Assembly (NCBI RefSeq): GCF_000384215.1
Contig: NZ_KB913032.1
Coordinates: 4,295,665-4,359,664, forward strand
DNA length: 64,000 nt
Reading direction: 5' to 3'
DNA from: Amycolatopsis alba DSM 44262
GTDB lineage: Bacteria > Actinomycetota > Actinomycetes > Mycobacteriales > Pseudonocardiaceae
Both the position numbers and the translations under genes were made by a program. The notes below the pieces were generated by a model. It ran no database searches. It was not told the origin of the DNA and was given only the letters and a program-made list of their open reading frames with translations. The number at the start of each line of letters is the position of its first letter. Within the stretch, counting starts at the first letter, position 1. This document shows positions 7,347 to 16,089 of this stretch, in pieces.

Positions 7347-7597
7347 TCACGCGAGTCCCGCCTCCAATCACGCGAGTCCCCCTTCCAATCACGCGTGTCG
7401 TCCGTCTGATCACGCGTGTCGTCCGGATCGGTCCGCGAGGCCGCTGTGCGGAATCGGCGAACTCGCGTGATCAGATGGACGACACACGTGATCAGGCGGA
7501 CGGCACGTGTGATCAGACGGACATCACACGTGATCAGGCGGCGAACTCGCGTGATCAGGCGGCGAACTCGCGTGATCGGAGGCGGAACTCGCGTGAT
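7346..7597. repeat. Inverted array of 21-bp repeats (4 forward, 7 reverse units)
   Basis: Core ATCACGCGAGT or ATCACGCGTGT recurs at 7346, 7367, 7388 and 7409, then the reverse-complement core (ACTCGCGTGAT and variants) at 7461, 7482, 7503, 7524, 7545, 7566 and 7587. Every step within each arm is exactly 21 bp. The 10-bp linkers are also partly complementary between arms: CCCGCCTCCA after the first unit pairs with TGGAGGCGGG after the last. The whole block fills the gap between two convergent genes and could form a long hairpin. A terminator or nucleoid-protein array is possible; function is unknown. Confidence 0.95.
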
Positions 7598-9673: not shown

Positions 9674-10777
9674 GTGCACATCGTCCAGCTCGCCAACTTC
9701 TACGGGCCACGCTCGGGCGGGCTGCGGACGGCGCTGCACCATCTCGGCGCGGGCTATGTGGCGAGCGGCCATCAGGTGACGCTCGTGGTGCCAGGGCAGC
9801 GCTATGCGGACGAGACGCTGCCGTCGGGAGTCCGCCGGTGTTCCCTTCCGGCACCGCGGATCCCCGGCACCGGCGGCTATCGCGCGGTCGATCCGCATCG
9901 GGTGCGCGCGGTGCTGAATCGCCTCGAACCGGACAGACTGGAAGTGTCCGACAGGCTCACGCTGCGCGGCATGGGTGTCTGGGCGCGGCGCAACGGCGTG
10001 CCCAGCATGGTGATCTCACACGAGCGGCTGGACAGGCTGCTGGAGCAGTTCCTGATGCCGGAGCCCGTCGCGCGGCGCGTCGCGGACGTCGCGAACCGGC
10101 GGATGGCGCGGCACTATGACACGGTCGTCTGCACGACGGGGTTCGCCCGCGCGGAATTCGACCGGATCGCCGCGCCGAACGTGCGGCGGGTCCCGCTCGG
10201 TGTCGACCTCACGACGTTCGCCCCGGCCCGGCGCGACGACGGCTGGCGGCACACGCTGTCCGGGAACGCGGACACGCTGCTCGTCCACTGTGGACGTCTG
10301 TCGCCGGAGAAGCACGTCGAGCGCAGCGTGGACACCGTCGCCGAGCTGACCGAGTCAGGACACCGCGTACGGCTCGTGATCGCGGGCGACGGGCCTCGGC
10401 GGCGAACGCTGGAACGCCGGGCGCGCGGGCTCCCGGTGACCTTCCTCGGTTTCCTCGCCGGACGCGGCGACGTCGCGCGCCTGCTGGCCAGCGCCGACGT
10501 CTCCCTCGCACCCGGTCCACATGAGACGTTCGGGCTGGCCGCGCTGGAGGCGCTCGCTTCGGGGACGCCGGTGGTGGTCTCGGCGTCGTCGGCGCTGCGG
10601 GAGATCGTCCGGCCGGGTTGCGGCGCGGCCGTCGACGATCTCGCCCCGGCGTTCGCGGGCGCGGTCACCGAGCTTTTGAAGAGACCAGAGATCGCCCGGC
10701 GTGCGGCGGCGCGGGCGCGCGCGGAGGATTTCGCCTGGCCACGATCGGTACAGGGAATGCTCTCCGCGCACACTTGA
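9674..10777 (+). CDS. GT4 glycosyltransferase
   Basis: A 367-residue GT-B glycosyltransferase starting at the GTG at 9674, 3 nt after the preceding glycosyltransferase. The N-terminal segment VQLANFYGPRSGGLRTALHHLGAGY and the C-terminal EX7E motif GPHETFGLAALEALASGTPVVV are typical of retaining family-4 enzymes, and VHCGRLSPEKHVERSVDTV is the inter-domain nucleotide-sugar region. No signal peptide or membrane segment is visible, so it should act at the cytoplasmic face. Close pairing with the MgtA-like gene suggests that the two act on the same glycolipid or sugar conjugate; acceptor and donor are not known. Confidence 0.85.
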   Translation: MHIVQLANFYGPRSGGLRTALHHLGAGYVASGHQVTLVVPGQRYADETLPSGVRRCSLPAPRIPGTGGYRAVDPHRVRAVLNRLEPDRLEVSDRLTLRGMGVWARRNGVPSMVISHERLDRLLEQFLMPEPVARRVADVANRRMARHYDTVVCTTGFARAEFDRIAAPNVRRVPLGVDLTTFAPARRDDGWRHTLSGNADTLLVHCGRLSPEKHVERSVDTVAELTESGHRVRLVIAGDGPRRRTLERRARGLPVTFLGFLAGRGDVARLLASADVSLAPGPHETFGLAALEALASGTPVVVSASSALREIVRPGCGAAVDDLAPAFAGAVTELLKRPEIARRAAARARAEDFAWPRSVQGMLSAHT

Positions 10778-10846
10778 TCACTTTGTATCTTCTTTGTACA
10801 ACCGGCATTCATCGTCCCCTCACGCCATCGAGCGAGAGGACGGCAC

Positions 10847-11617
10847 GTGAGGTTCGAAGTACTGGGAACGTTCAGCATCTCTTCCGGTTCGCGGTCGGTC
10901 CCGCTGCACGGCCGGATGAGAAGAACCCTCCTCGGCGTGCTGCTGGTCCGCGCGAACACCTACGTGCCCGTGAACGTGCTCACCGAGGCCCTGTGGGAGA
11001 GCCGCTGGGAGCCTCGCGCGGTGCCGAAGCTGCACTGGCACGTCCACAAGCTGCGGCAGGCCCTGCCCGAAGGCGACCGGCTCGGGTTCGACAACGGCGG
11101 CTACCGGCTGGAGGTCCACCCCGGCGAACTGGACGTCGAGACCTTCGAAACGCTCGGAAGCCAGGCGCTGAAGTCCGCGGACCCCGCGCAGCGCGCCTCG
11201 CTGATCCGGCAGGCCCTCACCCATTGGCACGGCGCGCCCTACGACGGCCTGGACGTCCCGCTGCTTTCGGACGAGACGATGCGGCTCTCGGAACACCGTC
11301 TGGTCCTGCTCGAAGAGCTCTACCAGGCCGAACTGGACCTCGGGCGGCACGCGAGCGCGGCCGTCGAGCTGACGGAGCTGGTGCGGCGGCATCCGCTGCG
11401 GCAGCGGGCCCAGTACCTCCTGATGGACGCTCTGTGGCGAGCCGGGCGCACGTCCGACGCGCTGGCGGCGTACCGGCGTGCGCGCCGGTTCTCGGTCGAC
11501 CAGCTCGGCCTCGAACCGGGGCCGGAACTGCGGGTGCTGGAGCGGAGGATCCTCGCCGGTGAGGTCGCGGGGGCCGGTGCGCACCGTGCCCCGGCGTTGC
11601 TTCACCGGACCAGGTGA
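10847..11617 (+). CDS. SARP/BTAD-family transcriptional regulator
   Basis: A 256-residue one-module regulator of the AfsR/SARP type. Residues 1-95 form the OmpR-like winged helix (MRFEVLGTFSISSGSRSVPLHGRMRRTLLG is split here as positions 1-30), including VNVLTEALWE and LHWHVHKLRQAL; residues 100-245 form the bacterial transcriptional activation domain (HWHGAPYDGLDVPLL, LRQRAQYLLMDALWRAGRTSDALAAYRRARR, LGLEPGPELRVLERRIL). It has no NB-ARC or TPR extension. The GTG at 10847 follows a GAGAGGA ribosome site. SARPs usually activate specialised metabolite clusters, but none is visible next to it, so its target is unknown. The 34-bp direct repeat and the island begin 35 nt after its stop. Confidence 0.88.
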   Translation: MRFEVLGTFSISSGSRSVPLHGRMRRTLLGVLLVRANTYVPVNVLTEALWESRWEPRAVPKLHWHVHKLRQALPEGDRLGFDNGGYRLEVHPGELDVETFETLGSQALKSADPAQRASLIRQALTHWHGAPYDGLDVPLLSDETMRLSEHRLVLLEELYQAELDLGRHASAAVELTELVRRHPLRQRAQYLLMDALWRAGRTSDALAAYRRARRFSVDQLGLEPGPELRVLERRILAGEVAGAGAHRAPALLHRTR

Positions 11618-11652
11618 ACCTACGGGGCGTCGCTTTGCTCCCGCTTGGCCGA

Positions 11653-11686
11653 AGTGTCTCAGCGGAGTCGGGTTAGTGTTCGGGGT
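11653..11686 (+). repeat. Left 34-bp direct repeat flanking the OLD-like island
   Basis: Begins AGTGTCTCAGCGG and ends TTAGTGTTCGGGGT. It is identical over all 34 positions to 13744-13777, and the identity stops sharply at both ends. The copy includes the same TAGTGT hexamer that serves as the menG -10 element, but here no start codon follows. It marks the left boundary of the A/T-richer segment. Confidence 0.95.
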
Positions 11687-11720
11687 CCCAGAAGCCCTGA
11701 ATCTGCCTAAGCAGTACGGA

Positions 11721-11755
11721 CCTCATAGCCGGAGCGGGATACTTCGGCTATGAGG
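11721..11755 (-). terminator. Hairpin directly after the OLD-like gene
   Basis: Arms CCTCATAGCCG (11721-11731) and CGGCTATGAGG (11745-11755) pair perfectly around a 13-nt loop. The stem abuts the stop codon of the minus-strand ATPase gene at 11756. There is no run of T residues after it, so an intrinsic terminator is likely but not certain; transcript-end protection is an alternative. Confidence 0.7.
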
Positions 11756-13468
11756 TTAGCGCAAGAATTCATCTACTGGCACTGCGGACAGAAGGCGCGC
11801 TACCTCCTCATTTACCCATTTTGCAAGGTCAACTGCGTGTTTGCCGACGCTTCCACTTTCTATAACTGCATCTGCGATCTTCTTCTTTATCGAGTTTAGC
11901 TCGCTCTTCTTGATCTCAAGGACTGGCTTTTTGCCTTTGTCTTCTAGAAGCATGTGAGCTTGAGCTGTCGATTCAATAAGGTCCTTGTCGAGATAGCGTT
12001 CGATACCTCTGAATGACTCGCCAAGAAGTGGATTAACGAGCTCCACGGGGGTTATTGCTGCCCCTGAGTATTCATGTGGAGAGATTACCTTTTGATATTG
12101 TGCAAGATCTTTTGTCTCCCAGTCGCGAAGGACTAGGACGGGAGCTATATTGGGACGAGAAGCCAATGCGCCCTTGTTGTATTTCAAGTACTGCAGAAGA
12201 GTGTCTCCGGCGGTACCTTCCCCGAAGATCTCGTCAGGTGCCACCAGGCGCCACCTTGGTCGGATGCCGCCCTCCTTTAGTGCCGCATTCAAATGAATCG
12301 CATCGAATGCGCCCTCGACTATGACCATTGGAAAATCTGAGTACTCAAGCAATGGATGGCGATAAGTTGTTATAGCAAGTCTGGTAGATCTGGTTAGAGC
12401 ATCGCGCGGCGTGAGCTTCTCTACGGTAGTGCCTGTATGTGGATGCGACGCAAGCCATGTTTGCGAAGCCACCCGGACAAACTCATCCTGATGAGTAGTT
12501 AAGAAGACTTGACGACGAGGATCTTGTGCATATTTGAAGAGGTCTTGCGCGAACCTGGTCCGAAGTCCGGCATGCAGGAAGGACTCGGGCTCCTCGATTG
12601 CCCAAATGCTTGCCTGGACCCAGCCAAACGCCCTTCCTCGGGAAACCCTATCGACCAGATCGAGAAAGTGAAGCAAAATGAATGATTGTGCGCCTGAGCC
12701 TTCGAACTCTGGCGAGCGGCCAGCTCCGTTTGATACGGATTGTATCGCCACATCGAAGGCAAGTTCGGCAAAATCAGTTGGAAGTGCCGGGTTTACCGAA
12801 AGGCTCTTAATTCCGGATCCGACGTTCTTGGAAACGTCGGATAGCATCTGTTCGCCGGTTCGAGAGAGGGCTAGCATGAGGTTGGCGACGTCGTCTTGCT
12901 TATAGGCTTGAGTGCCCTGCAGGCGTCTTACTAGTTCACTGCGCAATGGTTGCGCATATTGCTGGATTAGGTCGGCAGGACGTGCATGATTTGGAATATA
13001 TCTAAATGTTACCGCTCGCGTGAACAGTGCGAGGTTGGGAACCTGTGACGGGTCTGCATTCTGCAGTTTGTCAAGACTTGGGCCAAATGAAAACGAGTCT
13101 GCAATCCCTTGTCCTTGAGGGTCGATTGTCCAAGTTCTTTGGATCGCAATCTGATCTTTGAGACCGTGTTCTTTTAAAAAGTCTTCTTGCTTGCGTACTT
13201 TGAAGCCATCGGCTAGGTTGAATTCGACGCCTACTGAAATTAACTTCTTTTTTCCTTGAGGTGCATAATCGGAGAGATCTCTGCTCATGTCGACGTTAGA
13301 GTGTCGTTCATCGACCAGTCCGTTGAAGAACAGGTTCAGTGCGCGTAAAATATTTGACTTTCCTGAACTGTTGAGTCCAATGATCGGCACGTATCCTTCG
13401 ATGTCGTCCACGTTGAGATTTCGAATTGACCGAAAGCTTTCGACTCTTACGGTCTTTATTAGCCTCAT
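11756..13468 (-). CDS. OLD-like AAA ATPase-TOPRIM nuclease, candidate defence protein
   Basis: A 570-residue protein. N-terminal ABC-type ATPase: Walker A GLNSSGKS at residues 31-38, signature-like EGSGAQS at 256-262, Walker B with SIWAIEEPESF at 287-297 (Glu292/Glu293), and H-loop His326 in LTTHQDEF. The C-terminal part resembles TOPRIM nucleases of the OLD/GajA type: acidic Glu385 in VIVEGAFD and Asp449/Glu451 in LVLRDWETK, followed by GIERYL at 488-493. A GAGGGG ribosome site precedes the ATG. No helicase (GajB-like) or second nuclease gene accompanies it. Base composition is visibly more A/T-rich than all neighbours and it sits between perfect 34-bp direct repeats, so it was probably acquired. 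Phage defence is inferred from the family. Confidence 0.82.
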   Translation of the reverse strand: MRLIKTVRVESFRSIRNLNVDDIEGYVPIIGLNSSGKSNILRALNLFFNGLVDERHSNVDMSRDLSDYAPQGKKKLISVGVEFNLADGFKVRKQEDFLKEHGLKDQIAIQRTWTIDPQGQGIADSFSFGPSLDKLQNADPSQVPNLALFTRAVTFRYIPNHARPADLIQQYAQPLRSELVRRLQGTQAYKQDDVANLMLALSRTGEQMLSDVSKNVGSGIKSLSVNPALPTDFAELAFDVAIQSVSNGAGRSPEFEGSGAQSFILLHFLDLVDRVSRGRAFGWVQASIWAIEEPESFLHAGLRTRFAQDLFKYAQDPRRQVFLTTHQDEFVRVASQTWLASHPHTGTTVEKLTPRDALTRSTRLAITTYRHPLLEYSDFPMVIVEGAFDAIHLNAALKEGGIRPRWRLVAPDEIFGEGTAGDTLLQYLKYNKGALASRPNIAPVLVLRDWETKDLAQYQKVISPHEYSGAAITPVELVNPLLGESFRGIERYLDKDLIESTAQAHMLLEDKGKKPVLEIKKSELNSIKKKIADAVIESGSVGKHAVDLAKWVNEEVARLLSAVPVDEFLR

Positions 13469-13743
13469 CTACTACCCCTCGCGAACTGCATCCGGAACGA
13501 CCGACGAGGTTAGCTGCTGCCGTGTGACCTGCATCATCGGCTCTCCGTCAGGTGCGAGCCTAACGCGAATGGCTACTTCAAGTTACTGCATATGCACGAA
13601 GTGTGATATCGATGCGCGTTGCGCAATGTTGAACGTCAGCCCTGCGGCTCGTGTGCTGGCAGGGGCTTTATGAAACGCCTACTTCGCGTGCGCCGGTCGG
13701 GCGGAAGGTGCTGCCGCTTCGCGCTCAGCGAGGCTGAGTGCGC
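13469..13743. other. Island non-coding segment upstream of the OLD-like gene
   Basis: 275 nt between the ATPase start and the right direct repeat, of mixed composition. It probably holds the promoter of the minus-strand ATPase gene. A near-perfect hairpin (GCGCTCAGC, GAG loop, GCTGAGTGC) lies just before the right repeat at about 13718-13740. A 34-codon Cys-containing frame at 13569-13673 lacks a ribosome site and is not called. No integrase or transposase fragment was recognised. Confidence 0.5.
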
Positions 13744-13777
13744 AGTGTCTCAGCGGAGTCGGGTTAGTGTTCGGGGT
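13744..13777 (+). repeat. Right 34-bp direct repeat containing the menG promoter
   Basis: Identical to 11653-11686. Its last base is immediately before the menG ATG at 13778. Within it TAGTGT (13765-13770) fits the TANNNT -10 consensus and is separated from the ATG by 7 nt, so transcription could begin at or next to the A of the start codon. Confidence 0.92.
13765..13770 (+). promoter_or_regulatory. Putative leaderless -10 element of menG
   Basis: TAGTGT lies 7 nt upstream of the menG ATG, and no ribosome-binding sequence lies between them. No convincing -35 hexamer is seen, which is common for actinobacterial promoters. The hexamer is part of the duplicated 34-bp sequence. Confidence 0.55.
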
Positions 13778-14467
13778 ATGTCCCGAGCGAGTCTTGACAA
13801 GGATCCGCACGAAGTCGCCGCCATGTTCGACGACGTCGCGGACGGCTACGACCGCGCGAATTCGTTCATGACCTTCGGCTTCGATCGCCGTTGGCGCACC
13901 ATCACTGCGCGGGTGCTGGACGCCAAACGCGGCGAGAAGGTGCTGGACCTCGCGGCGGGCACCGGCGTGTCCACCGTCGAGTACGCGCGCAACGGCGCCT
14001 GGTGCCTCGCCGCGGACTTCTCGGTCGGCATGCTCAAGGCGGGCAAGCATCGCGGCGTCCCGATGGTGGCCGCCGACGCGTTGAGGCTGCCGTTCGCCGA
14101 CGACAGCTTCGACGCGGTGACCATCTCGCTCGCGCTGCGGAACTTCGTCGACACCAAGGCCGCGCTCACCGAGATCGCGCGCGTGGTCAAACCGGGCGGT
14201 CGCCTGGTGATCTGCGAGGTGTCGACGCCCACATTCCCGCCGATCCGGTTCCTGCACCGCAAGTTCATCCTGCGGCTGCTCACCTGGGTCGGCAGCCGGA
14301 CCTCGACGAACCCCGAGGCCTACTCCTACCTGGCCGAATCCATGCTGGCGTGGCCGGATCAGCGGACGCTGGGGGAGATCATCGCGAGCGCCGGGTGGAC
14401 CGAGGTGGAGTGGCTGAACCTCACGTTCGGCGTCGTCGCCATCCACCGCGCCAAAAAGCCCGCCTAA
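13778..14467 (+). CDS. menG: Demethylmenaquinone methyltransferase MenG (UbiE)
   Basis: Final step of menaquinone synthesis: SAM-dependent C-methylation of demethylmenaquinone. The 229-residue product starts [28 protein letters not shown] at the ATG at 13778. It contains the SAM-binding motif [16 protein letters not shown] near residue 50 and the UbiE signature [30 protein letters not shown] near residues 120-150. The frame is open further upstream into the island, but those codons are not UbiE-like and the ATG abuts the direct repeat. menJ follows after 10 nt. The insertion of the OLD-like island separates this gene from the upstream mgtA/SARP genes but leaves its own promoter intact. Confidence 0.94.
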
Positions 14468-14477
14468 ACTCGCGGCC

Positions 14478-15764
14478 ATGACACGTCGCAACCCTGACCA
14501 CGACGCCGAGGTCATCGTCGTCGGTGCCGGTCCGGCCGGGTCCACCGCCGCCACGTACCTCGCCCGCGCGGGCGTCGACGTGCTGCTGCTGGAGAAGACC
14601 GAGTTCCCGCGCGAGAAGGTGTGCGGCGACGGCTTGACCCCGCGCGGCGTCAAGCAGCTCATCGACCTCGGGATCGACACCAGTGAGGACGCGGGCTGGG
14701 TGCACAGCCGCGGTCTGCGGATCCTCACCGGCGAGCTGACGCTGGAACTCGACTGGCCGGACCTCACCAGCTACCCGCCCTACGGCGTCTCGCGGACCCG
14801 GCAGGACTTCGACGACCTGCTCGCGAAGACCGCGGTCAAGGCGGGCGCGCGGCTCTACGAGCGCACCACCGTCACCGGCGCGATCACCAGCCCCACCGGG
14901 CGCGTGATCGGCGTCGAGGCGAAGGTCGGCCCGGAGAAGACGCCGGTGAGCTACCGCGCTCCGCTGGTCCTGGCCTGCGACGGCGTGTCCGCGCGGCTCG
15001 CGCTGAGCGTCGGAATCCAGAAGAACGAGAAGCGCCCGATGGGCGTCGCGGTGCGGCAGTACTACAAGAGCCCGCGCCACGACGACCCGTTCATCGAGGG
15101 CCACCTGGAGCTGTGGGACCGCTCGGACCCGCGCGACCCCAAGCTCCTGCCCGGCTACGGCTGGGCGTTCCCGCTGGGCGACGGCACGGTGAACGTCGGC
15201 CTCGGCATGCTGTCGACGTCGGCCGCGTTCCGCAGCACCGACTACCGCGCGCTGCTGCGCCAGTGGCTCGACGGGACGCCCGAGGAATGGGGCTACCGCG
15301 AGGAGAACGCCATCGGCAAGGTCGGCGGCGCCGGTCTCCCGATGGGCTTCAACCGCACCCCGCACTACCGCGACGGCCTGCTGCTGCTCGGCGACGCGGG
15401 CGGCATGGTCAGCCCGTTCAACGGCGAGGGCATCTCGGCCGCGATGGAGTCCGCGCAGCTGGCATCGGAGTTCGTCGTGCAGGCGCTGGCGCGGCGCGAA
15501 GGACCTTCGCGCGAGCGTGCGCTGGAGGGCTACCCGCGCGCCGTCGGGGAGCTGATGGGCGGCTACTACCGGCTCGGCAACGTGTTCGCGAAGCTGATCG
15601 GGAAGCCGAAGGTCATGCACGCCGCGACGAAGTACGGGCTGCGGATCAACTCGATCCTTCCGTTGGTCTACAAGGGACTCTCGGGCTGCTACGACGCCAA
15701 GGGCGGGGACGGCGTGGACCGCCTCATCGCCGCTCTGGCGCGCGCCACTCCCACTCCGCGCTGA
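14478..15764 (+). CDS. menJ: Menaquinone reductase MenJ (geranylgeranyl reductase family)
   Basis: FAD-dependent enzyme that saturates one isoprene unit of the menaquinone tail. The 428-residue protein has an N-terminal Rossmann FAD motif VVGAGPAGSTAATYLARAGVDVLLLE at residues 12-37, the family segment PREKVCGDGLTPRGVKQL near residue 46, and the second FAD motif GLLLLGDAGGMVSPFNGEGISAAMESA near residues 295-320. The mycobacterial MenJ lies in the same neighbourhood, which supports the menaquinone role over archaeal-type lipid or chlorophyll substrates. The menG stop codon is part of TAAACT (14465-14470), 7 nt before this ATG, a possible internal leaderless promoter in addition to readthrough from menG. 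Confidence 0.9.
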   Translation: MTRRNPDHDAEVIVVGAGPAGSTAATYLARAGVDVLLLEKTEFPREKVCGDGLTPRGVKQLIDLGIDTSEDAGWVHSRGLRILTGELTLELDWPDLTSYPPYGVSRTRQDFDDLLAKTAVKAGARLYERTTVTGAITSPTGRVIGVEAKVGPEKTPVSYRAPLVLACDGVSARLALSVGIQKNEKRPMGVAVRQYYKSPRHDDPFIEGHLELWDRSDPRDPKLLPGYGWAFPLGDGTVNVGLGMLSTSAAFRSTDYRALLRQWLDGTPEEWGYREENAIGKVGGAGLPMGFNRTPHYRDGLLLLGDAGGMVSPFNGEGISAAMESAQLASEFVVQALARREGPSRERALEGYPRAVGELMGGYYRLGNVFAKLIGKPKVMHAATKYGLRINSILPLVYKGLSGCYDAKGGDGVDRLIAALARATPTPR

Positions 15765-15802
15765 CGCCGACTCCGCGCTAACGCACGCTCTTGCTCGGGG
15801 AG

Positions 15803-15855
15803 GTTGCGAAAGCCACTTTCGCAACGCTGAAGGTTGCGAAAGTGGCTTTCGCAAC
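15803..15855. repeat. Nested palindromic intergenic repeat, complete copy
   Basis: Units at 15803-15825 and 15833-15855, separated by GCTGAAG. Each is a palindrome with 10-nt arms GTTGCGAAAG/CTTTCGCAAC, and the two units are exact reverse complements of each other. It is the same element as at 1-52; the linkers differ (CTTCAAC there). Here it follows menJ and precedes the nuo regulatory region, consistent with a terminator for the menG-menJ transcript. There is no T tract. Confidence 0.92.
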
Positions 15856-16089
15856 GTCTCGCCGGGGGAGTCGCGCGCCCGCTCACCCCGGCTCCCACCT
15901 GCGCCGGACCACACGTCTGGACCAGTCACGGGTACTCCGGGCAGTGGTATCGGTCACAGGACAAACGTGGTCAAACGGACTCCCCGACTCGATCTTGAGA
16001 ACGACGTCGCAGGTCACCGGTACCGCACACGGGAAGAAACCGTACTGGCCGTGCGGTCAAGTTAGGGCAGCCTTATAGCACGGGGCCTA

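Follow-up and report, generated by a model that had tools for sequence, protein, structure and literature searches.

How did a foreign gene come to lie directly before menG in the chromosome of Amycolatopsis alba DSM 44262, framed by two copies of what is probably the menG promoter? We addressed this question in a 64-kb stretch of the genome (hereafter the window, from whose first base all positions are counted). Positions 11653-11686 and 13744-13777 form a perfect direct repeat of 34 bp, and the copies bracket 2,057 bp with a G+C content of 51.3%, versus 67.9% in the window. The original prediction had described such repeats around an A/T-richer island of about 2.06 kb with one gene, and this description holds, except that the left edge of the repeat possibly lies up to 3 bp further out. 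Extension to the left by three bases gives a 36/37 match (CGA versus CGC), so the duplication may have spanned 37 bp, with one base altered afterwards. On the right, the identity breaks off abruptly (CCC versus ATG). The features of the locus are as follows.

10847..11617, plus strand: SARP-type regulator gene, left neighbour in the host (BTAD domain PF03704, E 2.4e-35; its tail adjoins menG in 16/29 relatives)
11653..11686, plus strand: left copy of the 34-bp repeat, with TAGTGT at 11674-11679; putative orphan menG core promoter (in relatives it runs on without a break from the left host flank)
11687..13743, no strand: inserted foreign DNA, 2,057 bp, 51.3% G+C (absent from all 16 relatives with a SARP-menG junction)
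11719..11757, no strand: strong hairpin directly past the stop codon of the OLD-like gene, a possible terminator (86-nt minus-strand stretch folds with z -3.4, 0/200 shuffles as stable)
11756..13468, minus strand: gene for an OLD-like ABC-ATPase with a putative TOPRIM nuclease, 570 aa (profile, alignment and structure comparisons)
13469..13743, no strand: non-coding right end of the insert, 5' of the OLD-like gene (base composition, ORF reading, end search)
13720..13742, no strand: hairpin with a 10-bp stem that abuts the right repeat copy (51-nt stretch, z -2.6, 1/200 shuffles as stable)
13744..13777, plus strand: right copy of the 34-bp repeat, putative menG core promoter region (exact repeat)
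13765..13770, plus strand: TAGTGT, putative -10 element of a leaderless menG mRNA (TANNNT 5-7 nt before the ATG in 29/29 relatives)
13778..14467, plus strand: host gene for a menG-like methyltransferase of the UbiE/COQ5 family (PF01209, E 5.6e-53; match in 98/100 relatives, maybe not all of them orthologues)

A single foreign insertion between the SARP gene and menG

The menG region, used as a query against 100 relatives, matched 98 of them, and we read the loci of this genome (G000) and of 29 relatives. The tail of the SARP gene adjoins menG in 16 of the 29 (L003-L018). None of these 16 contains the insert DNA; between the end of the SARP gene and the menG ATG, each has the segment once, in many cases in a diverged form. 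The 13 other relatives (L019-L031) have different upstream neighbours and thus have no bearing on the empty-site question. The flanks of the insert are co-linear with those of the relatives. We conclude that foreign DNA was inserted once between the SARP gene and menG, in this lineage. The identical pair of repeat copies is seen in one genome. The original prediction had proposed that an alignment of this junction would reveal either an empty site or other cargo between the same repeats; the empty site is there in 16/16 relatives, and other cargo in 0/16. No sign of present mobility was seen. One of the 16 (L014, genome G019) has 53 bp extra, a different spacer sequence that brings its own TAGATT before the menG ATG. 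By eye, these 53 bp resemble the sequence upstream of menG in L028.

The composition of the inserted DNA supports a foreign origin, as had been proposed. Its overall G+C is low and its single ORF has a third-position G+C of 49%, deviating from menG (92%) and the SARP gene (89%). The ORFs of the insert include no integrase or transposase, in line with the first reading, and comparison of its first and last 120 bp uncovered no terminal inverted repeats (at most 6 bp of one end, on the plus strand, match the other end in reverse complement). The two non-coding ends match nothing in any other of 80 genus genomes, and the insert has no nucleotide match among plasmids and phages. No tRNA was detected in the 64-kb window, and Rfam yielded no matches for positions 10500-15000 at E values up to 1. 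The left junction is free of microhomology, and the right junction has only 2 bp, interrupted by a mismatch.

With up to 3 mismatches allowed, the 34-mer has two matches in the window (0 in each of 100 dinucleotide-preserving shuffles), and the two repeat copies are the only matches in the whole 9.81-Mb single-contig genome (0 for a reversed-pattern control). A common dispersed repeat, named at the outset as a finding that would speak against a mobile cassette, was therefore rejected. The pair is also the longest exact direct repeat (at least 20 bp) of the window, followed by a local tandem of 28 bp. Elsewhere in the window, short repeats in a tandem-like arrangement, with exact copies of 20 and 28 bp, occupy positions 7455-7578. 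Two palindromes arranged back to back occur at positions 1-53 and again, 15.8 kb away, at 15800-15858, with exact copies of 22-23 bp; among the loci scanned (L002-L039), L006 and L015 have this pair too.

Origin of the repeat and the menG promoter

We aligned the joined site of G000 (insert removed) with the 16 SARP-menG relatives. The median identity of the 34-bp segment is 68%, whereas the SARP tail reaches 96% and the first 200 bp of menG reach 97%. No two of the 17 segments are identical (0/136 pairs), and the G000 version accordingly equals none of the other 16, with L005 and L006 coming closest (33/34 each). Among 130 loci, the exact 34-mer is confined to those derived from G000. When 34-bp windows were slid along the locus, 102 of 3,324 were less conserved than the repeat segment, and other intergenic stretches (15769-15802, 15830-15863 and 10663-10696) are equally or more variable. 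By these comparisons the segment changes fast, though it is not unique in that. The 35-bp spacer from the SARP stop codon to the repeat (11618-11652) has a median identity of 94% and is better conserved than the menG promoter region next to it (68%).

Two identical copies of the lineage's own version are what a duplication at insertion predicts. Moreover, because the segment is variable and lineage-specific, an incoming element is unlikely to have brought a 34/34 match with it. The repeat is host-like, and on sequence grounds it is best read as duplicated host DNA spanning the putative core promoter of menG. The duplication very probably arose at the moment of insertion.

The right copy ends one base before the menG ATG, and its TAGTGT ends 7 nt before the ATG, in agreement with the coordinates first proposed. 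TANNNT is found 5-7 nt before the menG ATG in 29/29 relatives (5 nt in L014), despite their differing upstream neighbours. For M. tuberculosis, TANNNT is described as the common -10 motif and no -35 motif was found, while leaderless mRNAs are put at about a fifth to a quarter of genes (PMC3898074). Taken with the placement of TANNNT, this pattern suggests that the core promoter of a probably leaderless menG mRNA lies within the 34 bp. The same account reports that leaderless mRNAs are almost absent among M. tuberculosis respiration genes, which by analogy speaks against a leaderless menG.

As the -10-like element lies inside the right copy, menG would have been left with a core promoter after the insertion. 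The left copy has the same element and no start codon at the matching place, and is thus a putative orphan promoter. Both consequences had been part of the original prediction, and both are supported. The left copy faces the 3' end of the OLD-like gene on the opposite strand, where it meets the strong hairpin at about 11719-11757.

The OLD-like gene and its relatives

The 570-aa protein had been called an OLD-TOPRIM protein. Pfam confirms the first half of this name: the N-terminal part is an ABC ATPase (PF13175, 70.4 bits with a cut-off of 32.1; PF13304, 58.7 with a cut-off of 27). The TOPRIM half stays putative, as no Pfam TOPRIM model matched at E 0.001. Across 20 aligned relatives, G31, G36 K37 S38 and E292 E293 are invariant, and we take these residues to be Walker-type ATPase motifs. 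In the C-terminal part E385, D389 and D449 are invariant and E451 is near-invariant in the same alignment; they presumably stand where a TOPRIM active site is expected. Structural alignments with GajA and TsOLD extend over the C-terminal half, though at an rmsd >13. In VIA-align, SMC and Rad50 heads rank above OLD proteins, over residues 1-366 only. Neither a GajB-like helicase nor a reverse transcriptase partner was found, the insert having one credible gene and the SARP gene and menG as neighbours. The gene probably encodes a single-gene (Class 1-like) OLD protein of anti-phage defence or DNA quality control. We consider an anti-phage function reasonably likely.

The gene is sporadic. A protein search of the genus at E 1e-10 found it in 4 of 80 genomes, and only G000 and A. 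saalfeldensis (G034) share a close version (62%); the matches of the other two are partial and at 27-28%. At E <= 1e-60 it occurs in 4 of 390 genomes of the family and in 3 of 397 of the order. In a large protein database, 412 of 7,998 scored candidates passed 1e-20, and the cluster of the insert protein itself comprises two sequences on two contigs. Proteins related to it are encoded on 9 plasmid records and 1 phage record, all with <30% identity. Viral contigs contributed 26 loci; the broad matches among them are at 23-28%, and two that are short or partial reach 39% and 56%. Such a scattered distribution is expected of a horizontally moved defence-like gene.

The relatives of the gene differ in their settings. 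In G158 (probably Actinomycetospora termitidis; 47%) it lies in a 4.03-kb island (L084:4075-8233) bounded on one side by tRNA-Val(cac) and on the other by a copy of the 3' end of this tRNA (100 bp, 93%); a phage-integrase remnant is located alongside. In G273 (probably Lentzea atacamensis; 68%) it lies about 1.2 kb from an integrase remnant, and no tRNA was found in 13 kb. The stretch beside the Lentzea copy (L083:4001-4775) matches many places in 24 genomes of the genus, often several per genome. Comparison of A. saalfeldensis with its empty neighbour G009 revealed that about 95 bp were replaced by about 2.2 kb, with no duplication. We tested eight loci for bracketing repeats (G000, L032, L033, L034, L035, L083, L084 and L104), each against 20 single-base shuffles; L033 offered only 349 bp on its left side, and L104 1,500 bp on each side. 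An exact repeat above the shuffled maximum brackets the gene only in G000 and in L084 of G158. We infer from these differing settings that the family has no one shared way of insertion and that the 34-bp duplication belongs to the G000 event.

Routes of entry and comparison with known systems

The explanation that we favour, and hold to be somewhat likelier true than false, is a one-off capture of foreign linear DNA at a staggered double-strand break, with duplication of the promoter. The incoming DNA, about 2.06 kb long and with a single OLD-like nuclease gene, would have entered once between the SARP gene and menG. The staggered break would have left two 34-nt single-stranded ends, whose filling-in would have been followed by Ku-dependent end joining to the foreign DNA. 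The host sequence duplicated in this way would reach from the last base ahead of the menG ATG to about -34, a length of 34 bp or, at the utmost, 37 bp. In this scheme menG would keep a full core promoter on the right, and the left copy would become an orphan promoter facing the 3' end of the foreign gene. As insertions that did not copy the -10 element would cost menG expression, the survivor would be one that did copy it.

The lack of transposon ends, recombinase and useful microhomology, together with a host duplication of 34-37 bp, fits fill-in and blunt joining. The host G000 has two Ku genes that score above the cut-off; of 14 control genomes, one gave a match. We know of no bacterial precedent for a 34-bp fill-in duplication, and the work on tandem duplications that we found is eukaryotic. 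Against a capture, two related genes were located within or close to islands with integrases, so this cargo is known to travel by recombinases, and the nearest tested relative, that of A. saalfeldensis, was inserted with no duplication. We attribute the joining to end joining rather than to an enzyme of the element only tentatively, at a little below an even chance.

The two relatives with integrases nearby lend some weight to site-specific integration, in which the 34 bp would be the attL/attR core of a small island moved by a tyrosine integrase that acted in trans or was lost. Direct repeats flank the insert while the empty site has a single copy, as in att-type integration, and the 47% and 68% relatives stand near integrase remnants, the former in its tRNA-Val island. 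The original prediction had taken the repeat for such an attachment core. As a leading reading we rejected this, because the segment is a fast-changing promoter region rather than a conserved tRNA-like target (median 68%, 0/16 identical), and the G000 copies fit the local lineage. Since the insert has neither an integrase nor a DNA match to plasmids or phages, and the window has no tRNA, we regard this route as unlikely. We regard as equally improbable an origin by replication template switching, in which a strand would leave the host past the promoter, copy foreign DNA and rejoin 34 bp upstream, or by partly homologous recombination with donor DNA from a relative already bearing the arrangement. 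Either would produce the same final structure, and one-sided events of these kinds are plausible. However, the junctions have no clear microhomology, and none of the 16 relatives with the junction has the arrangement.

Could the insert instead be the non-autonomous passenger of a transposase acting in trans, one that leaves a very long target duplication? DDE enzymes do generate long duplications: the IS1202 subgroup is described as making target duplications of 16-28 bp, with family members bearing terminal inverted repeats (PMC10132070). The 34-37 bp found here exceed that range, and the insert lacks terminal inverted repeats and has ends that match nothing else in the 80 genus genomes. Transposase duplications >28 bp are found in other families. 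A transposon proper was rejected since no ends were found, and a passenger in trans seems quite unlikely to us. Less likely by some way would be an enzyme of a new kind, acting in trans with a staggered cut of about 34 bp on end-less single-gene cargo and preferring short leaderless promoters. If it existed, each insertion would copy a whole core promoter and so do no harm to the gene downstream; this would be a novel insertion chemistry, in which the length of the duplication corresponds to that of a promoter. An assembly or sequencing artefact is the most improbable of all, as the genome is one contig with a completeness of 100, the 570-aa ORF is intact, the flanks are co-linear and the protein cluster has two sequences on two contigs.

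The locus is a clean, dated-looking case of a single defence-like gene that entered the chromosome with a 34-bp duplication of a putative host promoter, and with neither recombinase nor transposon ends. It shows how an incoming gene can settle 1 bp ahead of a conserved one and still leave the latter with a promoter. Leaderless mRNAs, with a core promoter of only about 35 bp, would make such a landing easy. If end joining made the insertion, long target duplications could reveal other captures in Ku-bearing bacteria.

The cargo belongs to a known kind, and its framing by a promoter duplication is unusual. Among insertions, the tRNA-integrated island of G158 shares with G000 the gene family (47%) and the direct repeats on both sides; the repeat of the island is the tRNA-Val 3' end, copied over 100 bp at 93% next to an integrase remnant, whereas in G000 it is a promoter segment with no integrase. 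The IS1202 subgroup shares the long direct target duplication and the empty site in relatives, but the insert has neither transposase nor terminal inverted repeats and its duplication is longer. Among defence systems, the Class 1 OLD proteins (P2 Old, T. scotoductus OLD and E. coli YbjD/OldB) are encoded by single genes, as is the insert protein. Unlike them, the latter has no sequence match among PDB chains at E 0.001 and no Pfam TOPRIM match, and among the 25 PADLOC matches listed only the ATPase part is spanned. Its best structural likeness by Foldseek is to effectors of Class 2 and 3 OLD, namely GajA of Gabija (8u7i_A, E 1.5e-18; 8x5i_D) and Retron-Eco8. It differs from both systems in having no partner gene in the insert, and it scores far under the cut-off of the NCBIfam Eco8 effector model (41.2 versus 250 bits).
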